From Clitopilus passeckerianus (Eukaryota; Basidiomycota; Agaricomycetes; Agaricales; Entolomataceae): a stretch of DNA of 64,000 nucleotides. Position 1 is the stretch's first letter. Each line of letters opens with the position of its first letter. Made by a program: the position numbers and the translations under genes. Where the stretch lies: assembly GCA_944990035.1 (NCBI GenBank), contig CALYLX010000077.1:310001-374000 (forward strand), given 5' to 3'. Under the pieces are notes generated by a model. It did not search any database and was not told where the DNA came from. It was given only the letters and a program-made list of their open reading frames with translations. This document shows, piece after piece, positions 23,488 to 53,938 of this stretch.

Positions 23488-25419
23488 TCACCCGAGGCGG
23501 ACTGCAAAGGCGCAGACCAAGAAAGTTAACCCGACATAGACATAATATACCAGATTGCCTCCAAGATACTCCTTCTTAAGAGAAATCGCGAACAGCGAGC
23601 TGGCAAGAGCTGGGCTTAGAGCCTTTGTGACGCTCGCACATGTCTTTGGCGTTCGTCAGCTTCATGCACACCGAAATGTGGGCTAAATGGCATTACCTGG
23701 CTAATGCCGTTCACGGTTCCCAATGAGGCCTTGCTAGGTGCAGCAGCAGCGATCAAGATAAATACAGAACCTATAATAAGCTCTGAGTACTCATCGATAA
23801 CCGGAAAAGCGATATAGACTGACCTGCAGCCATACTAACGCCGGCCGAACACAGAGTCTGAACGCCTATGACGGACCAGACGGCCGGGCTAACCTTCCCT
23901 TGCTGATGCGCCAGCCAACCGATAACGGGAAATAGTACGAACGAGGGGATCAGGGATCCCAAGCCAGCGATAACGAGTTTTTTGGCTCCGTGGTTCTGGT
24001 ATAGCCGCGAATAGAAGAAAAGCATGAAGATGCTACTTGCTAAACCAGCGGCGAAGAGAATGTTTCCAATCGAGGAGGGGAGAAGTCCCAGTCCTCCCAA
24101 TCGCCACGGGGCTGAGAAGAAGAGCGGTTGTATTGCTCGATACGCTAGGTCCACCGAGGTGAGGAAGGAGTGCGACGCTATCGCGATGAGAACTTGGGAA
24201 GACCGTAGGAGATCGCGGACAGAAGGTAGAGCATCCTCGATGGGTGCCTCAGATGGAGGTTCATTAGAATTCGTGGTGGTGGTGGTATAGTTATTGGACG
24301 GCGAGGACTTTTTCAGAGGGGTGAAAACAGCCCGAGAAAATGGCTTCGGGTTCTCGAGCGTCTCCCGTAGATAGATAGCCACCATGATGGCGGCGGGCAA
24401 CGAGAGGAAAGAAGCGGCAGCACATGGCAGAAAGTATGGATGCGCCTCGAAGAACTTGATCCCTTTGAAGATTCCTGGATATTGCTCAGTGGGTTTCGCC
24501 AAGTAACCACCGACTAGCGACCCAAGCTAACCATCTTATGAGCACGATATTCTGTGCAAATAAAGGGGTGGGTGGCATACCGTGACCCCTAGAGACCATG
24601 TTAGTGGTAGGTAGCCGTAAGCCTGATGATTGCTCAGCATCAAACTAACGCAGACGTCGTTTCACATACCTTTCCTATGTTGCTAGTGTCACAGAGTTCT
24701 GCAATAATACTAGAGATAAGGCGTCAGCGGGTAGGCTACTACGAAGTTACAAATATACTCGCGTTCTTATCACGCAGGAATTCCCTCCCACTAACGACTT
24801 GATCAGCCCACAGTACAGTCCAAGTTTGAACTAAAATGATCGTACCGAGAAGGCCATACAAGCAACGACTGAGCGCAATCAATTGGTAGCACATAAGCCT
24901 AGTTATAGCAGCCACCCACCTCAGCAGTAGACCCCAGAAGTTGGTCGTCATTCCGAAACAAAGTGTCGAGACCGAGGAGCCACACAAGCCGAGAAGTAGG
25001 ACGGGCTTCCGTCCAACGATATCTGATGTCCGGCTCCAGTATAGCGAAGAAAATGCTTGTGTGCCAAAGTAGACAGATTGCTGACAATTTCACACAGATA
25101 TAGAGCTTCTGGAAAAGGACACCTCTTTAAAGTGCTCACCAATAACCCAGCGTAGTATCCGATTCGACGGTCGTCCCCGTGTGTGATCCCGGAGTCACGA
25201 ATGAGCTTGATGTGAGCTAAGTCAGTTCTTCTCCCACAGAAACATCGGGCATCGTATATTCACCTCGGGGAGAAATGGGTAAATAACCTGTGGCACCAAC
25301 GACTGAAGAAACTGAGCTAGAAGAATGATCGTTATTTGCAGGCGAGGTAGAGGCGAGATTGCTGGTCGAGAGGCGTGCTCTGCGAGCAGTGGTGTATTCT
25401 CCTCATTTCTTCTTGGCAT
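23488..25419 (-). CDS. Major facilitator superfamily transporter (DHA1-like)
   Basis: Multi-exon gene starting MPRRNEENTPLLAE at 25419 (first exon to 25264) and ending at 23488 in VCAFAVRLG-stop. Motif A is clear near 24990 (SDIVGRKPVLLLGL), preceded by YWSRT. Hydrophobic segments include LQITIILLAQFLQSLVPQV, PCAAASFLSLPAAIMVAIYL and VLFPVIGWLAHQQGK. The central loop between the two halves is Thr/Ser/Asn-rich with a charged start. Near the end, APSKASLGTVNGISQ followed by TCASVTKALSPALASSLFA is typical of fungal MFS proteins related to yeast YCR023C and plant ZIFL transporters. I infer an efflux or small-molecule transporter; substrate unknown. Middle exon boundaries between 24500 and 25260 were not all resolved. 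Confidence 0.82.
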
Positions 25420-25950
25420 ATGGAGTGGTGGGCAGTAGTAAAGTGTTGATTTACCGCGTTGTGCCAGATTGCTACCCCACTGCTTGGTGATAAATTGAGG
25501 GACTTCTGCTCACTGCGGCATGAGCGGCTGGCATGCCGATACGGTGACCCGTGTCGTGGGAAAATCAGAACTACCAGCCCTAAACACTGCGCGAGCGGCA
25601 TGCAAACCATCTCTTCCTTTGGGTAGGTTCACGGAACGGAACCGTTCGCCGACCTTCTTACTGTTGCTGCCTCGGGCTGAATCCACTTTCCGCTGGAGTG
25701 ATGGACTCCATGGATTGATCTACTCCGTTGAAGACTCTGCATGCCCCCGCAGTATACTCTCTACAGCCACCGTCGACTCCTGAAATTACCAGGCCCAGGG
25801 GGAGTAAGAAAGGATGCGCATGTAGTGCGCTAGGAACCGCTTGTGAGGTACCTCATACTGCTTCGGTGCTTGATTACTGGCGCTCACCCATGCTTTAAAC
25901 TAGGTTAACAGGCTGATACTTGGAATTCTTCCTGTCCGTCGCCAATCGCC
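25420..25950. other. Divergent promoter region, no gene seen
   Basis: Lies between the minus-strand MFS gene and the plus-strand gene at 25951. Short frames only. Confidence 0.4.
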
Positions 25951-26755
25951 ATGCTTTTTACTGTCATTATCAACATAGCCGCAGGTGACCTCCAAGGGCT
26001 GAAAAGTCAAGGATACCAGCTGTGCTTCTCGCAGCCTGTCGTGGTGAATGGCCAAGAACATTCTGGCAGTGGCATACTCGCCTCTTTTAGCTCGACGGAG
26101 CTTTCTCCTACACAGACTTTCTCGTGGCAGGAGGAATACCAGGTGTTCGCGGAAATGGAGGTGAGTATCGTCGTTTGGCCAGATTTGAGACTGTACTTAT
26201 TAGGAACGTCCCTAGACCCCCATGATCACCACTACGACTAAGCCGGTCACAATCGGCGGGAATCAGACAGCGACCATCGGAGCCGCATCAACCACTGTTA
26301 CGGGAACCGCGAAAGGTGTCGCATTACCATTTTTTGCCGTCAACGAGGCAGGACAGCCAGGAATACCTGTCAGAATTGGCGTGAGCGTTAGATGCGGAAA
26401 GACGGGGCTGGGAGTTAGCAGCCAGGAAACGGCCGAGACCGATGGGAACGCTGGCTTCCCCGTCGCCTTTGTCTCGTCAGAGGTTGCTCAAGGGTCTAGC
26501 ACCTCTCTGCTTCCCTCCAGCAGGAAGCTGCTGATATACTTTTCGAGTTCTTCTGCTACAGGTCCACCTCTGCCCCCGTATGAGATTGTGGTCGGGACAA
26601 ATACGCTACTTATCGTTTCCTATGAGGATGGTTCTTGGTCTCAGGACTCCGCGCAGTCCTCTGTCAGCCGTAGGGCTAGTCTTGGAATAGATCGGTTTCG
26701 CGCTTTTTTCGTCGTTCCCTATTTCTTACGTCGACTGTTCCGATCTCTGTTTTAG
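25951..26755 (+). CDS. Lineage-specific fungal protein, YxLCF family, member 1
   Basis: Two exons, 25951-26160 and 26216-26755, intron 55 bp; 249 aa. The N terminus (INIAAGDLQGLKSQGYQLCF, then TFSWQEEYQVFAE) matches a recurrent basidiomycete pattern in which a short strand-rich start is followed by YxLCFA and FSWxxxYxVF. I know this as a common uncharacterised family and cannot name a function. The C-terminal half has PFFAVNEAGQPGIPVRIGV and SVRCGKT. A paralogue lies convergently at 27105-27779. No signal peptide or membrane segment is evident; probably cytosolic. Confidence 0.68.
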
Positions 26756-27779: not shown

Positions 27780-28140
27780 TTGACGTGGGCGTTGAGACTG
27801 TCAGTCGTACAGGGAGTCAGAGAAATGCAGGTCGTCGTCCAGTTGAGCATCGTGCAGGTACATATACCAAGCTAGCTGTATATCGAAGCCAAGTGAAAAT
27901 GTTCTGCCATCATCGGGTAAAAAGAGTTTGAATTGGAGAACTCCTTTTGCTGCCGAATCTATACTTGCTGCCTGAGTTTCCACAACGTGGGAGTTAGCCG
28001 GACATCAACATTTCAATGTTCGGCAAATAGATCTGCTCGCTTTGGCGCGCCTAAGAGGCAGAATCGATAACACGAAGTAATTCCATCTCCACTAATCCAA
28101 TCTTGGTAACTTTTGGCCGAGGAAGGATAGTATAAACCTC

Positions 28141-28166
28141 GGCACTCTAACTATGGATGTGGGCGT
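28141..28166. repeat. Left terminal inverted repeat of the transposon
   Basis: 26 bp, pairs with 34234-34259 with 25 of 26 identical (a/c difference inside ATGGATGTGG versus ATGGCTGTGG). Flanked outside by the 8-bp duplication at 28133-28140. Confidence 0.9.
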
Positions 28167-28415
28167 CGCAGACGGAGAAAAAAATTAATTAATTAATTAA
28201 TTAGGAGGGGAAGATGTAGCATAGAAACGATCGAATTGCCGGCAAAATAGAAACAAAATTAAGGGTCCTTACCACCGTGGCTAGGCGTACATATCTACGC
28301 GAGATCAGAGATGACTATCAATGATAACAACCAGTGTCGAAAATCTGCATCCAAGGCTTTACATCCGGCCTAGTGAATTGAATCTTGGGTTAGCCAGGCT
28401 CTGCGAGAATTGCTG

Positions 28416-31400
28416 CTACTCACCTAGTAAGAACATCTGTCCAATTGTTTGCTGAGGGTTATCTTTACGTTTGGGACAAGGATTCCCTTTCCACTTGCCG
28501 TCGCATGTGGTTGAGCGGCAAGTCAGGCATGAACGAGGTTTTCTTGCTGTGTTGCGTTTCTTCTTCGCTGGTTCGGTTTCATCGGCCGTGTTGTGCTCCT
28601 CGGTATCCCGTGCTCGCCTTTTACCCTTTGCTCGTTCACTTAATGCCAAAGAAGTTGAAGCACGGGCGGGACCATAGAATGCCACCGGATCAACGTGCTT
28701 GAACATCCGGGTGGTTTCCTGGCTTTCGTGCATCGAGAGCATTCGCGAGACCTCCCAATCATTTGATGGGTCGATATATGTTTGTACTGAAGGTACCTTG
28801 CGACCTGTGGTGACCTGAAGATTGAGTGATTGAGCTTCTGTGACGTGAATGGTGGGGATCGAGGTGGGGCTGGTTTTAAGAAGCGAGGCAAGTTCATCGA
28901 CAGCATTCCTCTGCATTTCTACCGAGTTTTCTTCGTTTCGGAACTCCTTCCACGATTTGTAGTAGTTCTTCAATTGTTCAGGAAGCTAGAACCGAAATCA
29001 AGAGGCCATTCCATCTAATCCACAGCTAAAATGCACGAACCTTATAGAAGATTGTCTTGCCATTAACGTGCTTTGACCACTCAGAGGCAAATACTACCCA
29101 GTTAGGCTGAGTTTTCGATACCAGGGGACCTTCCGTGCGAGAAACCAGCGTCCCAAAGAGTGCCCGTTCAGCGGATGTGTGAATTGGTAGGATAGCAACT
29201 TGAGTCTGCTGCAGCTTTGCAAGGTTCATATGATGAATGCTCTCCTCTCGAGCAAACTCAGATGAAAAAGGTTGCATATTCAAAGTATCCCGAGACGATT
29301 TCGAGAGGGGCAGGATACCAAAGGTCTCTGGAGAACGGATGAAGTCGTTTCCATTTACCCAGCCAAGCATTGAGGGCTCCGCAGAGTTTGGCGCAAAACC
29401 CAGGCTGGTAATATCAATGAGTTTCATTAGACGGTTGCGTGTCCAGACATCAAATGACCCCTGATAGCGCTTCCTGTCCGATTGAATGTACCAACCTAGC
29501 CACTGTTCAGCTGGTGATATCGACTCGCGATGTAGGATAATAACATACCACGAGGTTGTGTGTGAGTGTGAAATCTCGAATGAGATTCACAGCAAGACGA
29601 GGGGACGTGTTATAGGAACCATATCGTTTTGCGATGCTCTGGTGAACACCACCTTCGATGCCGTTGGTTCCACGCATGCAGCGATACATGACGAGACCAT
29701 TCCGGTCCTTCTTCTGCGCAACATAGAAATCGATTCCAACAGGATCTGAGTAATATCCAAGGCGGATATTCTCAAGAATGTTTGCTGCCTTCTCCCAGGA
29801 TGCGTCATTGAATAACGGCTGGTTGGTCACGGCATCTACAAGGGGACCATACTTCTTGAAAACCTCTGACACTCTGTAGTGCAGTGCTTCAGCACCAGGA
29901 ACATATCGGCGCACACGCTTCCAGATCCAATCTGGATGATAGCGGAGCATTCGATCCCATGAAATGCCGCGTTTCCTCAATACTTCTTCAACAGCCTTTT
30001 GATCAGACGCATCGGGAACAAAAATAGCATCTCGTAACGCTCGAGCAAACGGTCGTCGAATACCATGATGAATGGCAATCTTAAACATGTCCATAAGATG
30101 CCAAATATCTCCAAGAACGCGTGATCGGACTTCTGGGTCCTCCAGAAACGCTGGCTGAATCAGACTTGGAGAGCTGATCCCCAATTTCTCCTCAACATTT
30201 ACCGATGAGGAGGCTGTATCTTCAGGAAGCTGCTCAGTTTCAGGGTCATAGGGGATAACAACGGGCCACCCTGGGCCCTCTGCTAACAATGGCATATCAG
30301 AGTCCAAGTCAGCTGACAGGGGCATATCTGCACCTGAGGCTCCGTTAGACTGCACATAGGCACTCTCGTGGGGCACATAGGAGGGTGGAGGGGTGGAGGT
30401 AGATGTAGCAGGGGTTTGAGTTAGGGGAAGTTGATCATGAGGAATGATCTCGGTATCCTTGATGTGGCAGAGAAGACCGAATGGGAGAGCGGTACTCAAA
30501 GCGCTCAGAGGCGTCTCTGCTCGGCATTCGAGAAGCTCTCGTCGAATGAGATAGCCAGACTGAATGATGTGCGTAATGTTAACAAGAACACGAGTTCCAG
30601 TCACGTTGACATTCTTGAACACTGCTGGGCGATCAGGTGCGATGAACCCAAAAGCGACAGCAGAACTGCGATCGCGGGAGAGGAGCTTGATGGGTGTCCC
30701 TGACGGGGTGGTAGGTGTTGCACGTTCTCGTGATGGTAGGGTAGAGAATGCATCTCGAAGCGCCCATGCAGCATAGGCATCAAGTTTGGCGTAGTCTTGC
30801 TGAGCATCGGTGAGGGCATCATTGTCCCAGGCTGTGCTGACCCGAATTGCCTCGTCTTTGGGAAGATACTGGTGGAGAATAGTTGCCACAAGGTCAGCAA
30901 GGCTGGTGTTGGATCTGCTGACGAGATTCCGATTGTGAGCGAGAGACCCAATCTCAACTGCACCCACGAAAGGGAGTTCACCATCCTTGAGGTTGCAATC
31001 ATGAAAGAGTTTCGTGAAGTCAGCCTTGATGTGAACTCCCCATTTTCGAATGCGTGGGGACCTCAATAGCACCAGTAGGGCATGTGGCGGGTTTAGAAAG
31101 CCGTCCTGGGTCACAAATTTGGATAACTATTAGCACAGAAGTTAGACATCAGACCCAAATATAGATAAGAGACGAAAGAACGCACTCGAATGAGATATAT
31201 ACATCCTAAATATGCAATTGTAACCAGGGAAACACGCCCCTGAATACCCTCGCGGCGGTCAGTGGACCACTCCATATCCATACTGATATCAACCGACTGG
31301 TCAGTGGGAAGTCCAGAGAGTTGCTGCATGAACTCGTTGAGTCGTTGGTTGATAAGATAGGTGGTGTCAAGAATTGTCGTATCCCAATCGAGAGGGATGC

Positions 31401-34056
31401 TAAGAACCTGCAGTGAAGACTTGATAGGCACTGGGTGGACACCATGGCGTAGCGAAGGAAACATGCGCTCGAGCTCAGCCTTGTCGGCACGGACATTGTC
31501 GGTCATGATGGCCTCAATGTCCCCATGCCCATACAATTTCAATGATTCCGAAATCTTCGCCAGTGCGGGCATGAACTGGTCGTGGGCCTTGGTGGGTGTA
31601 AGTGTCATTTGGCGAACTTCTACGTATTCGTTGGTTGCTGTATGTAACGCGCCAAAAACGGGTTCTCCGTTCACTTTACCAAGGTGTTTTGGAACCTGTA
31701 TCCAATGATCAGTCTGCCGAATATGACAATGATAGAGGAACTTGAGGATTCACCTTATGGCTATGGTCTATTGCTAACAAGCGTGCGGATAACATTGCCA
31801 TCCGCTGATCGATCTCTGAGCTATGCTCCTCAATGATCATGTTGTACAGATCACCGAAATAACGTCCTGAAGGGACATAGCCTGCATAACCGTCTCGATC
31901 ATTCCAAGCACCAAAACGCTGGTGCTTGGCAAGCAAGGTTCCTGTGGCAGATTTGAGGCGCATGTTCACCAGCTCATAATACTGGAGCTCGAGTTGCTCA
32001 AAGCCGCGGATGTGTAACGTGCGTATAAGGGCTGCGAAGGGGGTTGGTCCTAGACCTCGCTGGAATGAGGAGCGCAGGATCGCAAAGAGTCGGTCGGTGA
32101 TGCCACTGCGACAAGTGAGGTGAAACTTGAACTGGCTGGAAAGAGCTGGGGGTAAGACATTGAGAACGGCAGGGGACCAGCTGAGGTACGTCTTCTTGCA
32201 CTGCCCGCAAAAGTAGCGATAGCCTATAATATAGACTGTCTTGTCAATATCAGCAACTCGCCGTGGAGCTTGTGGCCACCCGTGATGCTGAAGCATGACT
32301 TCCCCGCCTTTCGTGCTGTATGTCCTCCCCGCTTTCTTGCACTCGGGACATGGGATTTTGCCAAGAACATGTGGGAGCCATACAAAGAATGATGGCGTGA
32401 AGAAATCTTTGGGTTCAATTTGATGTTTCGTGGCTGTCGTAAATAGTGGGTTCTTAGGCGGAATCGAGAAGTGACCGTCATCGTAGCAGGACGGTATACC
32501 GGATCGATTATTCGTCATCTCACTACGCAGGCGTTCACATAGTTCTCGATAGATAGTGTCGAGCCAAGTAGGAATTGAGGCCCGCGGCGTCGAACGAGAT
32601 CGCGAAGGACTGCTACTGCCAGGGGCAGCAGCAGTCAACGAAGACACTGCAGGCGAAGTTGCAGTGTCTTCATCATCGTCGAGTGCAGGTCCCACATCCT
32701 CATCATCAACATCTCGGTCCTCACCACATCCCATAAGCCTATCAATATCATCCACCATCCCCGGACCGTCCTCCTCTAGCTCCTCCTCCTTGTCCTGCAG
32801 GCTCAGTAATGCCTCGAAGTCGATCGCGACATTGTTCGTCACATTTGGCGGTGGTAACCCAGGAGCGGCTGCTGCGCGTGAAGTCAGAAAAAACTGATAC
32901 CGGTTTGTAGGTGTACGAGAACTTACCAGTTCTGGTTGTATCTCTGTTGTGGTCTGGACCAGGGGTGGTGCTTGACCTGCCGCCGACTTCCTCTAAGGAT
33001 GCCGGTGAAGCTGATTGTTTGGTGGTGTAAGTAGCAAGCTGCTAGACAAGTAAAGCAGGCTCACCTTGAGTCCGGCTCTCTGTACCGTGTCCCGTTACAT
33101 CATCAAATGTGCTGAGGTCTATATTGGAGGGTATCAATTAGAACTGAACGGAAAAGTAATATACATTGATTTTACTTGAGCTGAGTATTGCACTGAGCTG
33201 GCGAGAGGTATCTGGCGAGAGAAAATGCATCAGTCCCTGTGTTTAGATGATCGGGACCTTCGTTACCTTGTTTCTCCGCATTGACCGTTTGGGAGTGTGC
33301 ATCCGCTTCTTGATCGCGTGCTAGGAGTTCACCTGAGAGAGAATGAATGTTAGTTAGAGATCGCAAAGCATTGTTCTTCACTCACCTGAAGGCTCGAACT
33401 GATCCTCTTCGTTCACGCGCGTGAGAGGCAGTGTAGCACGGTCAGGTGCGAAAAAGCTGCAAATAGGGTGTATTAGTCCAAAACGAGCTTGAAATACCAG
33501 GGAAATGGGCAAACACACCCGTAATAGATGCCTGACGCTTCTCCGTGCTTGTTCTTTCCTGCTGGACCTCTGATGATTGTTGCTGTGAGGCAGAGGCTGC
33601 AGTCGGCGGTCCATCACCCTGCTGTGATGTGGTTCCCAGGCCTCTTACATCGCGTGTGCCGGTGTTTGAGTTGGTGGGGGCGGCAACGGCAGTCTCAGAT
33701 GGGAGAAGAGAGATAACTGGTTCTGGATCAACAAAGGGAAATGAGTTGTGCTGTATATACTGGGAGGAGCGGCACTTACCGTTGATAACGACCGGATTGA
33801 CAGGACCCGCGTCGACAGCTAATTGACGTGTGCCGTGTGAGGTTCTCCATGCACATGAACACGTTGTGGGACCAGGCTTACCTTTTGCAGCCAAATGAGA
33901 GGCCTCGGCAGGCGCCTGCTTCTGAGTTTTCTTTGGCCGCCCAACCAGCCTTTTTTTGCCTTCATTTCCAGTGTTGAGTTTGTTCTTTGACCCTTTCGGT
34001 CGACCGACAGGGCGCTTTGACGGATTTGGGGTGGGTTCCCCTTGAGGCGTAGCCAT
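28416..34056 (-). CDS. Transposase: AT-hooks, DUF6729-like region, DDE core with inserted DEDDy 3'-5' exonuclease, Cys cluster
   Basis: One long multi-exon gene starting at 34056. N-terminal exons carry two AT-hook-like motifs (KRPVGRPKGSKNK and KRLVGRPKK) and ITGFFAP across a join. 32480-32030 codes for a DUF6729-like zinc-containing region (FFTPSFFVWLPHVLGKIPC, CPECKKAG, YRYFCGQCKKTYLSW). A DDE-like core follows: AIDHSHK (D near 31766), then HLGKVNGEPVFGALHTATNE, MTDN (D near 31499) and GTNGIEGGVH (E near 29655). Between the second D and the E lies a full DEDDy exonuclease: SMDMEWSTD (near 31275), HIKADFTKLFHDC (near 31020) and YAKLDAYAAW (near 30780). The C terminus has CLTCRSTTCDGKWKGNPC. 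I infer one protein of well over 1000 aa that binds and mobilises the element. Introns are short; not every junction was resolved. Confidence 0.8.
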
Positions 34057-34233
34057 GTAGTGATGTATGGGTGATGTGCGCTGTCAGATTGGGCGGAGGA
34101 GGTCTGGTCAGGACTAGCTGGGAATCACGAGGTAAGATCGTCAGGTCGATATAAACAGTATATCAAGTTTCCTAACCAAGTATATCGATATACCATATAC
34201 AGTATATCATTTTAAACTCAGCTACATCGCTCC

Positions 34234-34259
34234 ACGCCCACAGCCATAGTTAGAGTGCC
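34234..34259. repeat. Right terminal inverted repeat of the transposon
   Basis: Reverse complement of the left end; followed outside by the matching 8-mer at 34260-34267. Confidence 0.9.
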
Positions 34260-34850
34260 TAAACCTCAGGGTCATCGCCTCACCCATCAGAGCTTGAACG
34301 TCCCTCCCTCGTCTCCAACCAGAACGGCAGAGTTGGGCCTTGTTGGGGCAATAGGTACGTCAGTGGACGAAAATTGGACCAGATGAATCTTGAACCTGGC
34401 GTGAACTGGTATTCGAAGGCACGGATTACTCCGAAAATTCCTTCCAAATTAACACCTTGCTTGGCAGACGACGCGAATGTCCAAGTAAGTGGAGCCTCGA
34501 GGGTACGAGTACAGTACCTGTGAGAGTGTTCTGTACCCAATCTGGACTAGCATGACCCTCGATCAATTATTTTGCCTGTTGTGAGAGCGATCGCAAAGGA
34601 TTGCTCCTGTCAAAACGAGTCCTCTACTCCACGGTTTTGCACATATGATTGATAGCATCCCAGGCGTGTCCCCCGCAGAGGTGTTCAGCGATCACGACAA
34701 ATGTTGTCGTTACCAGGCTCTGCATCAGGGTCAATGAATGTCCCTCGAGCTGTTGAGGAACAAGGCGCTGGGAAATGAACAGGGTGGAAGCTGGAAGACG
34801 AGAACGTAATCATGATTTGCCACTGATAGACCGCTTAACCGGTCTCCTAC
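34260..34850. other. Right flank of the transposon, no gene seen
   Basis: Begins with the 8-bp duplication. No supported coding region up to the tRNA. Confidence 0.5.
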
Positions 34851-34922
34851 AGCAGCATGGCGCAGTGGAAGCGCGCAGGGCCCATAACCCTGAGGTCACT
34901 CGATCGAGACGAGTTGCTGCTA
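34851..34922 (+). tRNA. Initiator tRNA-Met (CAT)
   Basis: 72-nt cloverleaf: acceptor AGCAGCA/TGCTGCT with discriminator A, D arm with TGGCGCAGTGG, anticodon stem CAGGG/CCCTG around loop CCCATAA, and T stem ACTCG/CGAGT. The T loop begins ATCG rather than TTC, the hallmark of eukaryotic initiator tRNA. A TTTTT terminator follows at about 34932. Confidence 0.92.
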
Positions 34923-35447
34923 AGAAATTATGCTTTTTCACTTCGTGACTTTGAAAGCCGAATTTGGATGTGTACATTCATTTTAACATTTGTAGGGCTT
35001 TGGGAAGGGGAGCTCCAAAATTTATCTTCTGATTCTAAACACTGCGGTTACAAGTATCCCCAACTCCAGTGAGTATAACGCCACATAACTACAGTGTCCG
35101 CCTCAGTCAAGACCGTATCGGACGTAATCTTGGCATTCATAATGACGATTATACCAGAGTACCTTGACTGTCATTTTGACAGCCTGAAACTGGGCAAAGT
35201 CAGATGCCTGAACTTCGCATGGGGTTTGAGGCGTAGTAGCAATCATTCTGGATCATCGATCACCGTTTCCCTACAGCACGAGCACGCGATCAGTGGTTTT
35301 TGGTAGGAAAAGCCCCTGAAAAGCCTCTTATGGAGTGGAGGAACCTTAAGATTGTGTTGAAGTATGTAACGTCTATTACTATCCGGAGCAAATGGCGCCT
35401 CCTTGAAGTGACGCTGTCATAACCTACTTCATACTTACGGTACTATT

Positions 35448-36385
35448 CTAGCAGTAGTCACTGAGCGCTAATTTTACCGCCTCAGCTAACCTGGGCAAAC
35501 AGACCATTTCAATCAACTCAGTCACCACGCCCCCGCTCAGCTCCCACTCAGAGTCATTTATGAATCGCAAATGAAATGTTGGGCGTTCCCCGGGAAATCT
35601 CTCGTTATCCACTAAAACATCCTCTATCAAAATCCACTCAAAGGCTTCTATGAGCCCTCTACCTTCCTCCTCGTCCTCCGTTCCGCCGTGGAAGGAAATA
35701 TATCCCGTCAATTTTTTGAACCGTTCACGAGATGGGATAGTGGCGAGGTCAGACGACAACCAGGTGGGGGAGGCCGATTCTTCAATTTGTAGAAAAAGAG
35801 CAATGCTCCCAATATCCAGTTCTTGGAGGGATGTGTTATGTTCCAACGTAAAGTCAGTCAGTCGCATTACTCCGCCTAAATACGTGTCAATGCATAGACT
35901 CCGAAAAGCAGCTAGAGTAGTCCCTCACCACTATCCTCGCCGATATCTCGCAATGGAAGGATCAATTTCGTCACGGAGGGGCCTACGTGTCGGAGTACCT
36001 CTTGCATCAGAACTTGGTTCACCATATCCGTTGATTCGTCCTGCAACAGAAGCTCGGTGATGTTCCAATTGTTGTGCAGAACAGTCTTAAGTAGGGCTGG
36101 AACATCGCCGTAATCAGTGTCAATCTTGAACTGCAACGAGGGATCCGCTAAGAAACGGCATTTTACAGAAGTATCCCAGTCCTGATCAATGTAGGATATG
36201 GGCCCGAGTATGCAGCTGACACGAAGAGAGGGTAACGATGCGAGAAAGTTGAAAAGCTGATCAGGCGACAAAAACGTGGCATCGCATAGTTCGATGGAGG
36301 TAAGAGAGTTTATGGATGCAATTCTCGAGATAAGGTCCCCGGGAAGCCCAAAGAAACATACAAATACATTGAATTTATGCTCTTA
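35448..36385 (-). CDS. Leucine-rich-repeat-like protein, 5' end unresolved
   Basis: Two exons are supported: about 36385-35929 and 35876-35448, joined across a 52-bp intron (GEDSG + GVMRLTDF). Sequence such as LISRIASINSLTSIELCDA, LFNFLASLPSLRV and NTSLQELDIGSIALFLQ has LRR-like spacing, as in the C-terminal half of basidiomycete F-box/LRR proteins. The first exon here follows an AAG acceptor after a stop, so at least one upstream exon should exist, but I cannot identify it or an F-box. It may be a 5'-truncated relic. Likely cytosolic or nuclear if functional. Confidence 0.45.
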
Positions 36386-39300
36386 AAACAGTCGCTCTGA
36401 CACTCGTTGAGCCTTTCGGCTAATAACATTCCTAAACGTTGACGTCAGTTGGGTTGCTGCAGATGATTGAAGTATTTTGTCTGCGGCTCCTTACATTGGT
36501 ATCTGGGTTACATGCATGGCCGCAACAAAGGCTCTCCTTTGTAGGGCAGCTGGCTCCTGAAGGCAAGCATGCTGGGGCTGTGCGACGAAGTCAGATCTTG
36601 CGAAATCCACCATGGCGAGAGTTCAAGAGATTCACCTCGCTCAGAAATCACGGAGGAAGCGACAAGAGTGTACATGACGCTCATGAGCAAGAGAAGGTTG
36701 TTGGGCGATGCGAACTTCATGATGAGACTGATCGACTTCAGCAGGCAAGTGGTATGAAAGTCACGAATACCTTAGATTCTCTTTTTATGCTCTCCATGAA
36801 TGCCCACCGTGCCTCAATGGGCGCATGTAATAGGTTCACATGACGAATTATGCTTCTGGAGCATGAATTGGCCAGGTACAGAATCAGTGATTCAGTGTCT
36901 ATAGTTGACAGTTGGGAGAGCTTCTGGGCCTATGTGCAAATGGCTCAGAATCCATCCGAAATTCTGCGATTTGGTTTCGGTTTTTGGCATGTATACCATC
37001 CAACGTCGTATGTGTCTGATTTCAATCCGCCAGATCTCCACTCACTTTAGACCCAACGCGCACTTGGTATCTAACTAATTAGCCTCGCATATTGCTAGCG
37101 TATCTAAATGTCGATGTGAGTTTGTGGCCTTCCTACTAGACGTCGGTTGTGTCTCAGTGACCTAACACACCAAACTCACATGACCGCACCATGATTTTGA
37201 TAATCGTATGGCGGTTCCCCAGCCAGTGGAAGAAATGAACGTCATAGAGCTTGGTTCCGTGACAGCTTTCATGTCATGCTGTCGAAGAAATGTGGCATAC
37301 ACAATGGACTGTGATCGTGCTTGATGGTGCCATTCGGCATAGGAACGAAGTTCCAGGGACTACGGGGAGCTTTCGCCTAGCTTTTGAGTCAACAGCATGA
37401 CTGGCGTGATGGCTTGGTCAGATGAGCTTTACGGTGGAGGTGGAGGGGAGCATTTATCAACGTCGCAAAATGTATAACCATTGCGTATTGGAGAGGGCAC
37501 AGAGTGGAGACCGTTCATGCCGAAGCTAAATCTGGGTAAAATGAGACCAATGCATCGAGCGTGTATGCCCACGAGCCTCCGTCAGAGAAAGTAGTCGAGT
37601 AAACATGAGCGGTAAGGTCTGATTCACAAGGAGATATGACGAGTGAACGCATTCTTCAGGAACTGCCTGCTTTGTCCAGAAGAAGTTCATAGATCTGAAC
37701 TACATCTTCTCCGTGGCTGTCGTAGATATCATCCTGGCGTGACAGATATTTCGGAGAGAATTCGATGTTGGCCGACTTCTTTCCCTCAGTCCGAGGAAGG
37801 CCGGCGAAGACTTGGGGAGAGAGGAAAACCGTTTAGTCAGTGAATCAGCCGCTCGACCAACCCTATCAAATAGCTCTGATCCCGTCTGCTCTTGTCTGTC
37901 GGACTGCGAAGTAATTGCACAAGGTGTGTGCATCCGGTTTCTGGCAGCTGTCATCTCGACGTATATGGTTCCGCAAGGTGTGACCTTGATATATATATAG
38001 ATCCGCCCATGCCATTCCGACCCACCTATTGATGCATGTCGTCCAATCGTCATGGGAAGCTTTTGATCTCAACGTTGAGCTTGGGAGCCAGCATGGAAGA
38101 TTTGGGGTTCGCTCAACGTTAAATACATCTGGCACTCGGTCATGACAACATTTGTGAGCACCGTCTTGATGAAAAAAACGTTCAAGATATCAATTACTAG
38201 CATTAATCGTAGGCGATAACAAGATGATTTTGGCCGCTCAGATACTCATGTGTAAGAAAATCAAGTATTTTCTGGGAGGACAATCGGCTATTTCCGCTGA
38301 GACTGGGAGTCAACGCCAGGTTCCTCACCTGATTGCAGGTCGGTTAAGAACATTGCCGAAATCGAAACTAGAGGAAGACATCACCTACTTTCGCAGACGT
38401 AGACACCACGCTAACGGTGGAATCTCTATCAGGTGTATGTGAGCCTTTCCGTCGAATGCCTTTTTGAGGTGTATTCGATATCCGAATGAGGACCACGGGC
38501 AGCCCTCTGAATCGCACGAAGTCCAGATCCAGGCTCGTACACTCCATTTCGTTGTGTTTTACGGCTCTTAGCGTTCGTCTTGGTGGTGCGTATGGCGCGT
38601 TCAAAATCACGATAAAATAAAGGTAGGCTGGAGCCTCTTATTGGATTAGAAGTGGAAGGTCGAGGGAATACAGCCGTACCTCTGCCGCACCATGAGCTCA
38701 GCGTCGACCACCGCACGTCCATTGAAGTGGAATAGAGTCCTTAGGGAATGAATCACTAACGGCGGATATAGTATAGAAACTCGTTCAAGATCTCACTCAA
38801 ACGCCCTATCTTTCGCCATATAACGGGAGTTGGGATGCTGGTCGAACGCCACTTTGATAACCTTCCGTCGAGGAGCTGCTTCCACGTAGATGGATCCGAA
38901 AGCTATGGCATAAAGAATAACACTTTTGAAGGAGACCATGGCGACGGTAGCGAGAGACGTTAGACGGAGTCAGTGACCAGCACTTGACTCTGAGGAAGGG
39001 ATTTCAGAGCCCTCCGGCTTATGAACCACAATGGGTGTGGATGAAGCAGTGCTTTGCAGGTCCCAGTACCCACAGATGAACCAGGGCATGGTGTTTCATC
39101 AAATGATTTGAAGATGCGCCATAGAGTTCAGGCCTTGGTTTACGTCAGAAAGCACAGAGTCGAGTGGAGTCAAAGTCCCAACTCGTAGGGCCAGGCAGGA
39201 GGCGCACAGACTGCTAGCTACAGGCACGAATCCTTGCCTTCGTTGAGAAACACTCCAAGGGACATACTAGTTAAATACAGATGTGTCGCTAGAGAAGACA

Positions 39301-42300
39301 TGTACCGCGCGTCAAATCGATATTCCAAAGACGGCTTGTCAGAGCTTCTGAGCACTGCATAAGCCAGCTTCCATTGCATTCCTAGTTCCTTTCGTCGCCA
39401 TGGACGCTCAGCGCTGAGTCTAGCGTTAAGTTAAAGGCACCTCCAAAGCGACGTGACAACGGTTGCACAGATATTTGTTCATGGAAAACGTGTTGGCCAC
39501 GTGTAAGTAGTATTCGCTTGTATAACTGCTACCTTTCGAGTCCCCTAGCGTAGTCTAGCTATAGATGGAGGTCCTTGTTGAAACCCAGGATGGAGGATCG
39601 ACTGGCGATCTATGGGGTGCTGAAGTTGAGGCTCTTGATAAACATGTGCAAGCAGATGCGGCAGAGCCTTCGGCTCATCTCGGACTTGTGGGCTGAGGGC
39701 CAACGCTACCGCGCGGCAGGGTACGAGTCTGGAGGGCTGCTTTGACGAAGTTACTGGTCATTATACTATGGGACAACGGTGTAACAAAACAGGTTCCACC
39801 TGAAGACAATCAGATTCAAGCTACGGCAGAAAATGACGTTGTGGTCCCAATAAGAACAGCTGTGTTGGTGCTACGTCTACAAGAACTACCATCGCTAGGC
39901 GAGTACTCTTACACAAGCCACCAGCGTATATCAGCGCTTGATTGCCTCTGTGGTATCCCACGGGCCACGGTCAAGAAAAACCTCGCGGCGGTTTCCCTGA
40001 CATTCTTCAATTCTCGTAATTCTACATGGTACCGCACCTTCGTCATCTTGCTCGTCTCTTGAACGTCCTTGAATGAACCAGGGCCCATATCTATTGCGAA
40101 TTCTGGTGATATTAAAGGTCAGCACGTTTTCCGATACATCAATCGAACTACTTACAGATACCGAGTGCCAGTGCACTTCGACCAAACATGGGGACATTAG
40201 CTGCGAATCAAGGCTTTATTCATATTGAAGGTACAGCAAGACCAGGACTTGATGCACCTTTCAAGGCCGTCATCAAGTTGAAGAGGATTTGCTGATTTTC
40301 GATATAAACTGGTTCTTCGCTTTCTTTGAGGCTGTAGATAATCTGTCTGCCCTTGATAGTAATAACGACGATCAGCGTCTCGCGCACGCACAGAGGTGAT
40401 GAATCCGAGCCGCTTGACATCTCTTGCCTTGGGCCTGAGCTCGCCTGCTCAATCGTGAAAGCAGCTGCGTCCATCTCGTAATCGGAACGAAAAGTAAAAT
40501 CCGAAATTTTGACAGGACGATGGCGGGTGGAACTCTTCTGCCTTGCCCTAGGGAAGGTGCATCTTGGTCACTGACTCATTCTAGAAGAGCAGGGAGGACG
40601 AGATGAACCGGAAAGCCTTTCAGAGTCATCGCTAAGCCGATCAATGTTGTAGGGTTGTGATTCTATATGAGACTACGGCCTGTAGATACGTTGGCTTAGC
40701 CTAGTGGAAATCTCTGGTATTGGCTTCAAAATGAATTCAGCCGTTGGCGGTTGAATGGACATGACTGTATGGCCTGCAAGGGAGAATCCCGGCAGGCATA
40801 TCGGCAGGGCTGATGAATCCATAATATTAATAGCATCAATATAACCACGTGGACAGTTACTAGATATAGTATGAACTACATATGGGGAACCAAAGCATTG
40901 ATGCCCATTGATGAGCAGCAACGGCAACCCACGGCAGCACCATATATAGAGGTAACCCCGTGTAAGAAGGCCTGTTGCCCCAATTAGAAGTCAGAAGTGG
41001 ACGAGCAGCCAATCAAAATGCGAGAATTGCAGTCGACCGGGCGGGGATCTTGGCGGACAGCTCTCAATACAAGTTCTCGTTGGAGTAAACTCCAGACTCG
41101 TAATTTCGGCACCACATTCCATTGCTTTTCCTTTGCTTTTGAAGGGCACTGGGGTGTGCAGAGAGGGTCGGGATCAACGCTCGAAACTTTTAAGATGGAC
41201 GAAGTAGCACATAATATAATTTCCAAGGCAATTTCTAGTGAGGGATGAATGAAAGGGGCATAGGATTCTTAGAATCATGATCGTGGACGTTTCTTCGACT
41301 GGACAACGTCCGCCTGTATAATCCTCTCATATCGCTGGGCACATTTTCCTTCGAGAGATGGTTTTATCAAGATAATTCTTATTTGTTCGATCTAACTCCT
41401 CCCCAAGACATGCCACTAAGATCATGACGTAGAAACCTCCCTGCCGGCGGTCGTGGTAGACATCTAAAGTGCTACTGTTTCATGAAATCTCATTCCAACT
41501 CGGACCCGTTCACGGAGTCGTCATTCCTCCCTCCTCGAGTCCCAGAGGGAAAACATACCGATGGCGGATAACGAGCCGGCGGGCGGAATCCTAGTCTCGG
41601 ACGCTGGGTAGGGAAGATACGAAATGAAATGAGGGAGAGACAATAAAGAAAGGATCAAGAAAGGTCAAAGCTCGATTCGCAGATCAAAGTTAGCTCGGAT
41701 AACGTGGTCGGCCTGTTTCACGTTGGGGAAGTAGCGTCCGATATCGAGAGGTTTGTGGGCGTAGAAGTACCATTGAAACAATTCAGTGCGAGTGCCACTG
41801 GGAAAGGTGTTTCAGGATAAGCACGTTCTGGCGTGAAGAAGAACTCTATTCATTGAGAAGACTTCGAATGATACACGCGGCGTAGTGGGATCGTCTGATA
41901 ATAAACTACAAGCAATAAAGAATGACATGCCGGCGGTAGGTTTTACCACCTGAGTTGAGGTGATCTTCACCGGTTAGGAAACACTCGAGGATTCATACCG
42001 AGGAAAAATATTGGAAAAGGAACAAGGACGCTGGGACCCTGATGCGTCCATTTGCCACATCGGAATTGCGTTCCTAGCCTCCGGTAACGGATGTACAGCA
42101 CTCGGTATGGATTTCGCTTACGGCATAAACCTTCGGTGATTGTGAGCGGGGATACCGCGCTGACTGAACCTTGATTAGAGGCCCTGTGGGTCCGAATAAG
42201 AGAGCGATGGTATAACGATTCCTCAATCTTTACAGAAAGACAGTCGCTATCGACATAGCCGAACATGAGAGATAGTACAGCTAATCACTCGATGGATGTT

Positions 42301-53853: not shown

Positions 53854-53938
53854 AGCCCACCGCGAGGGTCGAACTCGCAGCCTTCAGATCTCATCCTACG
53901 TAAAAGTCTGACGCTCTGGCCGATTGAGCTAGGCGGGC
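53854..53938 (-). tRNA. tRNA-Lys (TTT) with 11-nt intron
   Basis: Acceptor GCCCGCC/GGTGGGC, D arm TAGCTCAATCGGCCAGAGC, anticodon stem TCAGA/TCTGA around loop CTTTTA-A, T arm GCGAGTTCGACCCTCGC. The loop is split after position 37 by cgtaggatgag, the canonical place of nuclear tRNA introns. Confidence 0.92.

Follow-up and report, generated by a model that had tools for sequence, protein, structure and literature searches.

A Dada-like DDE transposon of Clitopilus passeckerianus with terminal inverted repeats and a predicted exonuclease in its catalytic domain, apparently active very recently

Dada is known as a superfamily of DDE transposons that hit small RNA genes, hAT and P elements carry terminal inverted repeats (TIRs), and the target-site duplications (TSDs) of MULEs are 8-9 bp long. 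The rule given for Dada in the available parts of Kojima & Jurka 2013 (PMC3706591) and Kojima 2022 is TSDs of 6-7 bp and RNA-gene targets; in the same material, families with examined ends have no TIRs and many families insert in multicopy small RNA genes. The accessible text of PMC3706591 also describes an exonuclease between the second catalytic D and the DxxH motif in Laccaria and Ectocarpus Dada transposases, namely Dada-1_LB and Dada-2_LB (Laccaria bicolor) and Dada-1_ES (Ectocarpus), with the domain order CCCC zinc finger, D, D, DEDDy exonuclease, DxxH, E and C-terminal zinc motif, and reports it for these families only. The C-terminal finger is stated there to be of the CCHC type, the Laccaria representatives measure about 7.8 and 5.7 kb by the paper's coordinates, and for the exonuclease-bearing families the available text leaves termini, TSDs and targets unmentioned. 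The same source assigns hAT and P elements TSDs of about 8 bp and DxxH-group transposases.

Fungal genomes have been surveyed for Dada as well. According to the accessible portions of the papers concerned, Ganoderma leucocontextum is rich in Dada (PMC8955403), 15 Dada families are given for Agaricus bisporus (PMC7473861), and Marasmius oreades was searched for Dada without multiple well-supported hits (PMC8290104). Within the text available, a paper on TET transposons of fungi (PMC12730594) mentions neither 'Dada' nor 'exonuclease', PMC12477816 gives one Dada family in Ectocarpus with the exonuclease unmentioned, and PMC10045372 names Dada among C/DxxH superfamilies and goes no further. A search of the literature, as far as the accessible texts go, found no account of exonuclease-bearing elements of this type that have TIRs, produce 8-bp TSDs and insert at dispersed sites.

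We analysed a window of 64,000 nucleotides of the C. passeckerianus assembly, in which one copy of such an element (28133..34267) spans 6119 bp between its TSDs (Table 1). A sequence-only reading had described 26-bp inverted ends matching at 25 of 26 positions and an exact 8-bp TSD, and both were recovered, the TIR pair being 96% complementary (25/26). The first 23 TIR bases, with at most 3 mismatches allowed, occur at two sites in the 64-kb window, which are these two ends, and at none in 100 dinucleotide-preserving shuffles of it.

Table 1. Features of the window copy, in window positions.
Feature	Position	Strand	Basis
Left TSD TAAACCTC	28133..28140	.	read in sequence; single copy in empty site C156:45455-45698
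Left 26-bp TIR	28141..28166	+	inverted-repeat alignment
Last transposase exon, C-x2-C-x4-C-x8-C zinc-like motif (~28476-28529)	28416..28985	-	splice model
Transposase exon	29041..29502	-	splice model
Transposase exon, second exonuclease part, DxxH (~30098-30109), catalytic E in TNGIEG (~29654-29656)	29549..31126	-	
WRN-like DEDDy 3'-5' exonuclease, intron-interrupted	30779..31278	-	PF01612, profile match, residues
Transposase exon, second catalytic D (~31498-31500), exonuclease start (DME)	31186..31695	-	splice model
Transposase exon, DUF6729 (~31952-32449), CCCC zinc site (~32198-32350), first catalytic D (~31766-31768)	31754..32842	-	
Two AT-hook motifs near N-terminus (ATG 34056)	33928..34014	-	sequence; weak profile matches
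Right sub-terminal region, common with ~1.1-kb short elements	34153..34233	.	similarity including TIR
Right 26-bp TIR	34234..34259	-	inverted-repeat alignment
Right TSD TAAACCTC	34260..34267	.	read in sequence

The one long interior gene of the earlier reading is indeed present, but it is not a single open reading frame: in our own splice model its conserved core, on the minus strand from 32842 to 28416, is split by introns into five exons that encode 1402 aa with zero internal stops, and further putative N-terminal exons would begin at an ATG at 34056, upstream of the start of the core model. Of the proposed AT-hooks, DUF6729-like region, DDE-like core and nuclease, DUF6729 (PF20499, E 1.3e-14) and the 3'-5' exonuclease (PF01612, E 1.4e-5) both score above their Pfam cut-offs, and the family exonuclease profile matches the WRN exonuclease chain at E 1.6e-26, with the putative active-site residues D503, E505, D569, Y645 and D649 in the core model. 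The AT-hooks are visible by eye, and the consensus N-terminus of alignment A1 reads GRPKGSK...VGRPR, but their profile matches are weak (Pfam E 0.91; HMGA chain E 0.043 with the family profile), and the MULE match to the core stays below its cut-off.

Relatives of this protein seem to be numerous in basidiomycetes. The third protein search gave 309 relatives at E<=0.01, of which the best 120 were listed, and the second and third searches scored about 7,990 candidates each. Members of this protein family are present in Ganoderma leucocontextum (P0027) and Agaricus bisporus (P0098, P0110), the two species with Dada reported above, which speaks for the kinship; no animal or Laccaria name occurs among the matches listed (34 of 34, and the best 120 of 309), some rows of which are nameless, and scans found no relatives in viral contigs or prokaryote genomes. 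In the conservation alignment (164 rows; the counts leave out the weak partial hits P0054-P0058) the catalytic residues are almost invariant, D1 being D in 147/147 rows, D2 in 152/153 and E in 143/146, as are the D (151/153) and H (152/153) of DxxH. The N-terminal zinc cysteines are kept at C165 and C168 in 121/128 rows each, at C212 in 126/126 and at C215 in 95/110, and the first two cysteines of the C-terminal C-x2-C-x4-C-x8-C motif in 22/29 and 16/21 aligned rows. All five exonuclease residues are retained in 132 of the 145 rows aligned at all five positions. Among the 125 rows in which DDE and DxxH are aligned, 119 fill all five exonuclease positions and none misses more than two, an impression of an exonuclease that is 'never lost' which may be biased, because the searches were seeded with exonuclease-bearing queries and the best-listed hits were taken.

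The ~6.12-kb element is present in six copies in the same assembly, this and all other copy numbers from the genome search being lower bounds. Four of the six carry exact 8-bp TSDs, all four different, and the C157 and C150 copies have none. Five copies are 0-1 substitution apart over 6.1 kb, and the sixth differs from them by 25-26. Copies also differ by 1 bp in length, one such run difference falling in the N-terminal part of the gene, so that not every copy is in frame as assembled. Each of the four TSD-flanked copies has a counterpart locus at another place in the assembly, where the site is uninterrupted and the 8-mer occurs once. These empty sites are 93-95% identical to the occupied loci, with the 8-mer matching at 8/8 positions in three and 7/8 in one; the site corresponding to the window copy, on C156, has the same order and orientation on both flanks, and the other three are collinear over the roughly 550 bp examined. 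The contigs that carry them are likely the other haplotype, or parental chromosome set. Near-identical copies, different TSDs and empty sites within the same assembly bear out the suggestion of the sequence-only reading that the element is young and possibly active; it looks intact and has apparently been active very recently.

All four empty-site alignments also contain an indel of 1-5 bp near the right end of the TSD. It lies 6-17 bp past the TSD, or, for C136, within the 8-mer under an alternative alignment. As the flanks have further indels too, we treat it as unexplained and possibly due to chance.

Related ends occur in the same assembly on a second autonomous-looking family and on short elements of four sizes. 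Over 25 insertions of all families with both ends read, the TSD is 8 bp in 19, 9 bp in two and absent in four; this count leaves out L020, L036, L037, L039, L040, L042, L048 and L049, in which one end was not found, and L007/L014, which have an internal match only. The 8-bp TSDs are mutually different in 18/18 cases of the compared set, and a 6-bp repeat occurs solely as the spacer within one tandem pair. No tRNA was found at the rejoined target sites (0/21), and Rfam gave no match on the four empty alleles, nor at the insertion points of occupied loci, where a split gene could escape if the empty allele is lacking. Insertion sites thus appear varied and untargeted. The short elements have the first 58-70 bp of the left end in common with the 6.12-kb element, and the ~1.1-kb ones (2/9 copies without TSD) match its right end, TIR included, at 88% identity over 107 bp. 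That both ends are common to the 230-bp and ~1.1-kb elements suggests that the transposase may move them in trans.

How does this element compare with Dada? It shares with Dada the DxxH between the second D and E and the N-terminal CCCC zinc site before the first D, and with the Laccaria/Ectocarpus branch the domain order, introns and a similar size, the likeness to that branch being one of description and not of sequence; a C-x2-C-x4-C-x8-C motif stands in the window copy where Dada has a CCHC finger. The RNA-gene families (Dada-U6, -U1, -tRNA, -5S), on the other hand, have 6-7-bp TSDs, lack TIRs where their ends were examined and insert in snRNA, tRNA or 5S targets, whereas our element has 26-bp TIRs, TSDs of 8-9 bp, no tRNA at 21 of 21 rejoined sites and an exonuclease throughout the aligned rows. 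Kinship with Dada is suggested by domain order and motifs, but since TSD length, TIRs and targets differ, we do not file the element as a canonical Dada. We consider it quite probable that it is a cut-and-paste DDE transposon with TIRs and a WRN-like exonuclease placed in the catalytic domain as in the Laccaria and Ectocarpus Dada, and a TIR-bearing, seemingly untargeted, exonuclease-carrying lineage of this kind is apparently a new variant. In such a transposon, the TIRs and the AT-rich sub-terminal DNA would be recognised through the zinc finger and the AT-hooks. Excision would fall to the DDE core, which would then link the 3' ends of the element to target strands cleaved 8 bp, or at times 9 bp, apart, and gap filling by the host would produce the target duplication. 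A likely task of the exonuclease would be to process ends laid bare in transposition, and the same transposase could mobilise the 230-bp and ~1.1-kb short elements.

An ordinary hAT, P, KDZ or MULE member that has acquired an extra domain seems highly improbable. The element does share with hAT and P a TSD of about 8 bp, DxxH and TIRs, its 8-9-bp TSDs fit those of MULEs, and sub-threshold MULE matches exist; it differs from hAT and P by the exonuclease insertion, and from MULE/IS256 also in the N-terminal zinc region. The 8-bp length in particular fits what PMC3706591 gives for hAT and P. However, in 20 family members at E<=1 no hAT transposase or dimerisation model, no P transposase or THAP model and no KDZ transposase model of Pfam was matched, and MULE always stayed under its cut-off (PF10551, best 19.1 bits, E 0.0018, curated cut-off 27.6 bits). 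The earlier view that the domain set does not match hAT, P or KDZ agrees with these results, and no Pfam transposase model reaches its cut-off. The D1-D2 stretch resembles MULE weakly in 4/8 segments (13.7-18.0 bits, E 0.004-0.089) and an IS256-type Mutator transposase in 1/8 (E 0.022), in agreement with the kinship stated in the Dada paper (PMC3706591).

Two further readings turn on how far Dada itself extends. The element might be a plain Dada, of a fungal kind whose TIRs and 8-bp TSDs are already recorded in Repbase or in papers; only this copy would then be new, and the mechanism would be the one outlined above. The genome papers that name fungal Dada families, in their accessible parts (Agaricus bisporus, PMC7473861; Ganoderma, PMC8955403), speak for it, but the available text of Kojima 2013 and 2022 keeps to the 6-7-bp, RNA-gene rule with fungal termini unreported, and our literature search, within the accessible texts, did not turn up any account of how fungal Dada elements end; we regard it as unlikely. 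Distinctly less probable is a separate unnamed DxxH superfamily, beside hAT, P, MuDR, Kolobok and Dada, that gained its WRN-like exonuclease independently. The TIRs, 8-9-bp TSDs and dispersed targets do differ from published Dada, and no direct sequence link to any Dada could be made, the matches listed bearing neither an animal nor a Laccaria name. Yet the same unusual domain order is described under Dada for the mushroom Laccaria as well as for a brown alga, which makes convergence the less simple reading. It also means that the domain set was already known from PMC3706591, and the earlier proposal of an undescribed superfamily, inasmuch as it was based on that set, is not supported in that form.

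A bolder reading, which we put forward tentatively and would doubt slightly sooner than accept, is that of a basidiomycete superfamily with TIRs, 8-9-bp TSDs, no targeting and a working proofreading-type exonuclease in its catalytic domain, either the untargeted sister of Dada, with RNA-gene targeting derived, or a superfamily of its own, that is moving now, its insertions being found on one haplotype and lacking on the other. If Dada has an exonuclease-bearing relative that inserts at scattered sites, with TIRs and 8-bp TSDs, the question of how Dada targeting arose would become testable, and defined ends together with recently moved copies would let the role of an exonuclease inside a transposase be asked. 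The element would also account for many basidiomycete proteins (309 at E<=0.01) that now bear the names 'hypothetical', 'DUF6729' or '3'-5' exonuclease'.

The window element is complete at 6,119 bp (28141-34259), and the sequence-only reading of its ends was confirmed: the terminal inverted repeats (TIRs) span 26 bp, with 25/26 positions identical, and TAAACCTC is present on each side as an 8-bp target-site duplication (TSD). The element's anatomy points to a cut-and-paste DDE transposon. No further copy of the element end was found elsewhere in the 64-kb window, nor in shuffled sequence. A search of the host genome assembly (64.8 Mb, 160 contigs, referred to as C plus a number, with C77 being the window's own) gave six full-length matches for the element's first 360 bp and six for its last 360 bp, the window's own counted, as well as 7 and 34 weaker matches, respectively. 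The six copies range from 6116 to 6122 bp; private substitutions number 25 in the C136 copy, one in the C59 copy and none in the remaining four. All other differences, as assembled, are 1-bp indels in seven places, and in three copies, likewise as assembled, such indels split the DUF6729 exon. The expectation that other copies would bear other duplications was borne out within this genome, as four of the six have exact and mutually different 8-bp TSDs (TAAACCTC, TCCCCAGT, CTTTCTGC and CGGAAAGA), while the C157 and C150 copies have none. A further recent repeat, at window 40000-41104, is 99% identical to C82:160941-162045.

The joined flanks (240 bp) of the four TSD-bearing copies were searched against the same genome, and each pair gave one additional place, covering 239, 240, 237 and 223 bp of the 240. 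These places align as uninterrupted sites with one 8-mer each, matching at 8/8 positions for C77, C59 and C136 and at 7/8 for C29, with identities of 95.5%, 95.4%, 93.5% and 94.7%, respectively. The empty site proposed for sister strains was thus found, for the window's copy, inside the same assembly, on C156. This contig also carries window 25000-26500 (85% over 1.5 kb), a 49-bp stretch near window 41150 and, in four pieces at 81-90%, window 35000-36500, part of which has its better or sole match on other contigs; the order and orientation of the three matches are as in the window. At C59, C136 and C29 the comparison spanned roughly 550 bp each. We infer that both haplotypes are present in the assembly and that the four insertions are heterozygous. 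Each of the four pairs of empty and occupied alleles also differs by a 1-5 bp indel situated no more than about 17 bp from the TSD's right end. Given its copies, TSDs and empty sites, the element has been recently mobile.

As for the two copies without a TSD, ATGGAAAT is common to the left flank of the C157 copy and the right flank of the C150 copy. When joined at this sequence, the two flanks align to C75 through the junction with 78% identity, and their longer versions occupy neighbouring stretches of that contig (80199-81208 and 81230-82505, 67-78% identical); they therefore belong to one insertion site now divided over two contigs, either because the assembly was wrongly joined within the 6.1-kb repeat or because copies have truly exchanged sequence. 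Because identity to C75 is only 67-78%, it would represent either a strongly diverged haplotype or a paralogous region. Neither an empty site nor a partner half was found in the genome for the other two flanks (C157 right, C150 left).

In the same genome, an exon-by-exon protein search with the DUF6729 exon gave 57 matches. The members of a second, autonomous-looking family (C34, C57 and C89, 99.7% alike) are about 5.93 kb long. Their ends are related to those of the window element, which the right end matches at 87.5-91.7% over 24 bp; the TSD is 8 bp long at C34 and C89 and 9 bp long at C57. A tandem pair of this second element (C18:40428-52307) has an outer 9-bp repeat, CTTTTTGTG, and a 6-bp spacer, CTTTTT; tandem Dada copies with a 6-bp TSD between them have been described (PMC3706591). 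Short elements of four sizes also occur, and the core protein had no match in any of the 15 tested. In those of 1111, 1097 and 230 bp, sequence shared with the window element amounts to 58-70 bp at the left end and 72-108 bp at the right.

Short elements of the genome and tRNA genes of the window
Feature	Position or length	Strand	Remark
Short element	1111 bp		8-bp TSD in 4/4
Short element	about 1097 bp		8-bp TSD in 7/9
Short element	1029 bp		8-bp TSD in 1/1
Short element	230 bp		8-bp TSD in 1/1
tRNA-Met gene	34851-34922	+	just under 600 bp beyond the window element's right TSD
Second tRNA gene	53854-53938	-

Among the 25 insertions read at both ends, the TSD is 8 bp long in 19, 9 bp in two and absent in four. 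All 18 of the 8-mers compared are different, and the surrounding bases show a weak bias (e.g. C two bases upstream in 11/18) and no fixed motif. Aragorn found no tRNA in 21 rejoined sites. At gathering scores, Rfam models matched nothing in the four empty alleles and, across all 25 insertion loci, nothing at the point of insertion, where a gene cut by the element could escape detection. As Rfam found no tRNA in the other insertion loci fetched, the nearness of the tRNA-Met gene to the window element is probably a coincidence, and we take these results to mean that RNA genes are not targeted here as they are by Dada.

In our splice model, the five-exon core of the predicted transposase comprises 1402 aa. 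Its DUF6729 region holds C165, C168, C212 and C215, and is followed by D359, D429, the exonuclease residues (D503, E505, D569, Y645, D649), D873xxH876, E1024 and a C-terminal cysteine cluster. Wherever a source was named, the rows of three protein searches were basidiomycete proteins, from Amanita, Mycena, Lentinula, Tulasnella and Phenoliferia among other genera; some rows of the second and third searches had no source name. Precomputed Pfam annotation places DUF6729 and the exonuclease together in 18 of 34 first-search rows, and at least one of them in 32. In an alignment of 164 rows, a non-random sample since the searches started from exonuclease-bearing queries, the conserved residues are D1 (147/147), D2 (152/153), E (143/146) and both D (151/153) and H (152/153) of DxxH. 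The five exonuclease residues are complete in 132/145 rows, and DDE plus DxxH in 119/125, with at most two exonuclease positions missing in any of these 125. The family profile matched WRN exonuclease structures (E 1.6e-26). The earlier failure to place the protein in a named superfamily was upheld by Pfam, whose transposase models matched none of 20 family members at E<=1; cut-down segments gave a MULE match below the cut-off in 4/8 and Transposase_mut in 1/8.

Whether this is an undescribed superfamily, as had been suggested, depends on the comparison with Dada, for which the accessible text of PMC3706591 (Kojima & Jurka 2013) gives a DDE transposase with DxxH and N-terminal CCCC and C-terminal CCHC zinc fingers, TSDs of 6-7 bp, snRNA or tRNA genes as targets, and no TIRs found for Dada-U6 and Dada-U1. 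The domain order speaks against novelty: a DEDDy exonuclease, with a proposed role in 3' end processing, lies between the second D and DxxH in Dada of Laccaria bicolor and Ectocarpus, and the protein order of our family is alike. In its favour, TSD length, TIRs and targets all differ from canonical Dada, for which TSDs of 6 or 7 bp, and the insertion of many Dada elements in RNA genes, are again reported in the portion available of a later study on fish (Kojima 2022, PMC8869645). According to the same text of PMC3706591, every Dada with clearly definable termini is located in small RNA genes, and Laccaria family names bear no target; the ends of the Laccaria families were thus presumably left undefined there. 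No paper in the open-licence literature searched named DUF6729, and none among those listed described the ends of fungal Dada.

Published papers report 15 Dada families in Agaricus bisporus (PMC7473861) and an abundance of Dada in Ganoderma leucocontextum (PMC8955403), and our protein searches found proteins of the window element's family in both species. For Marasmius oreades, a published search for Dada is reported to have yielded no multiple well-supported hits (PMC8290104), which counts against universal presence. The family may be a superfamily of its own. By its protein order, the window element appears Dada-like, of the exonuclease branch, and by its TSD length, TIRs and targets it is not canonical Dada; taken together, these features thus point to a variant of the Dada-like kind.
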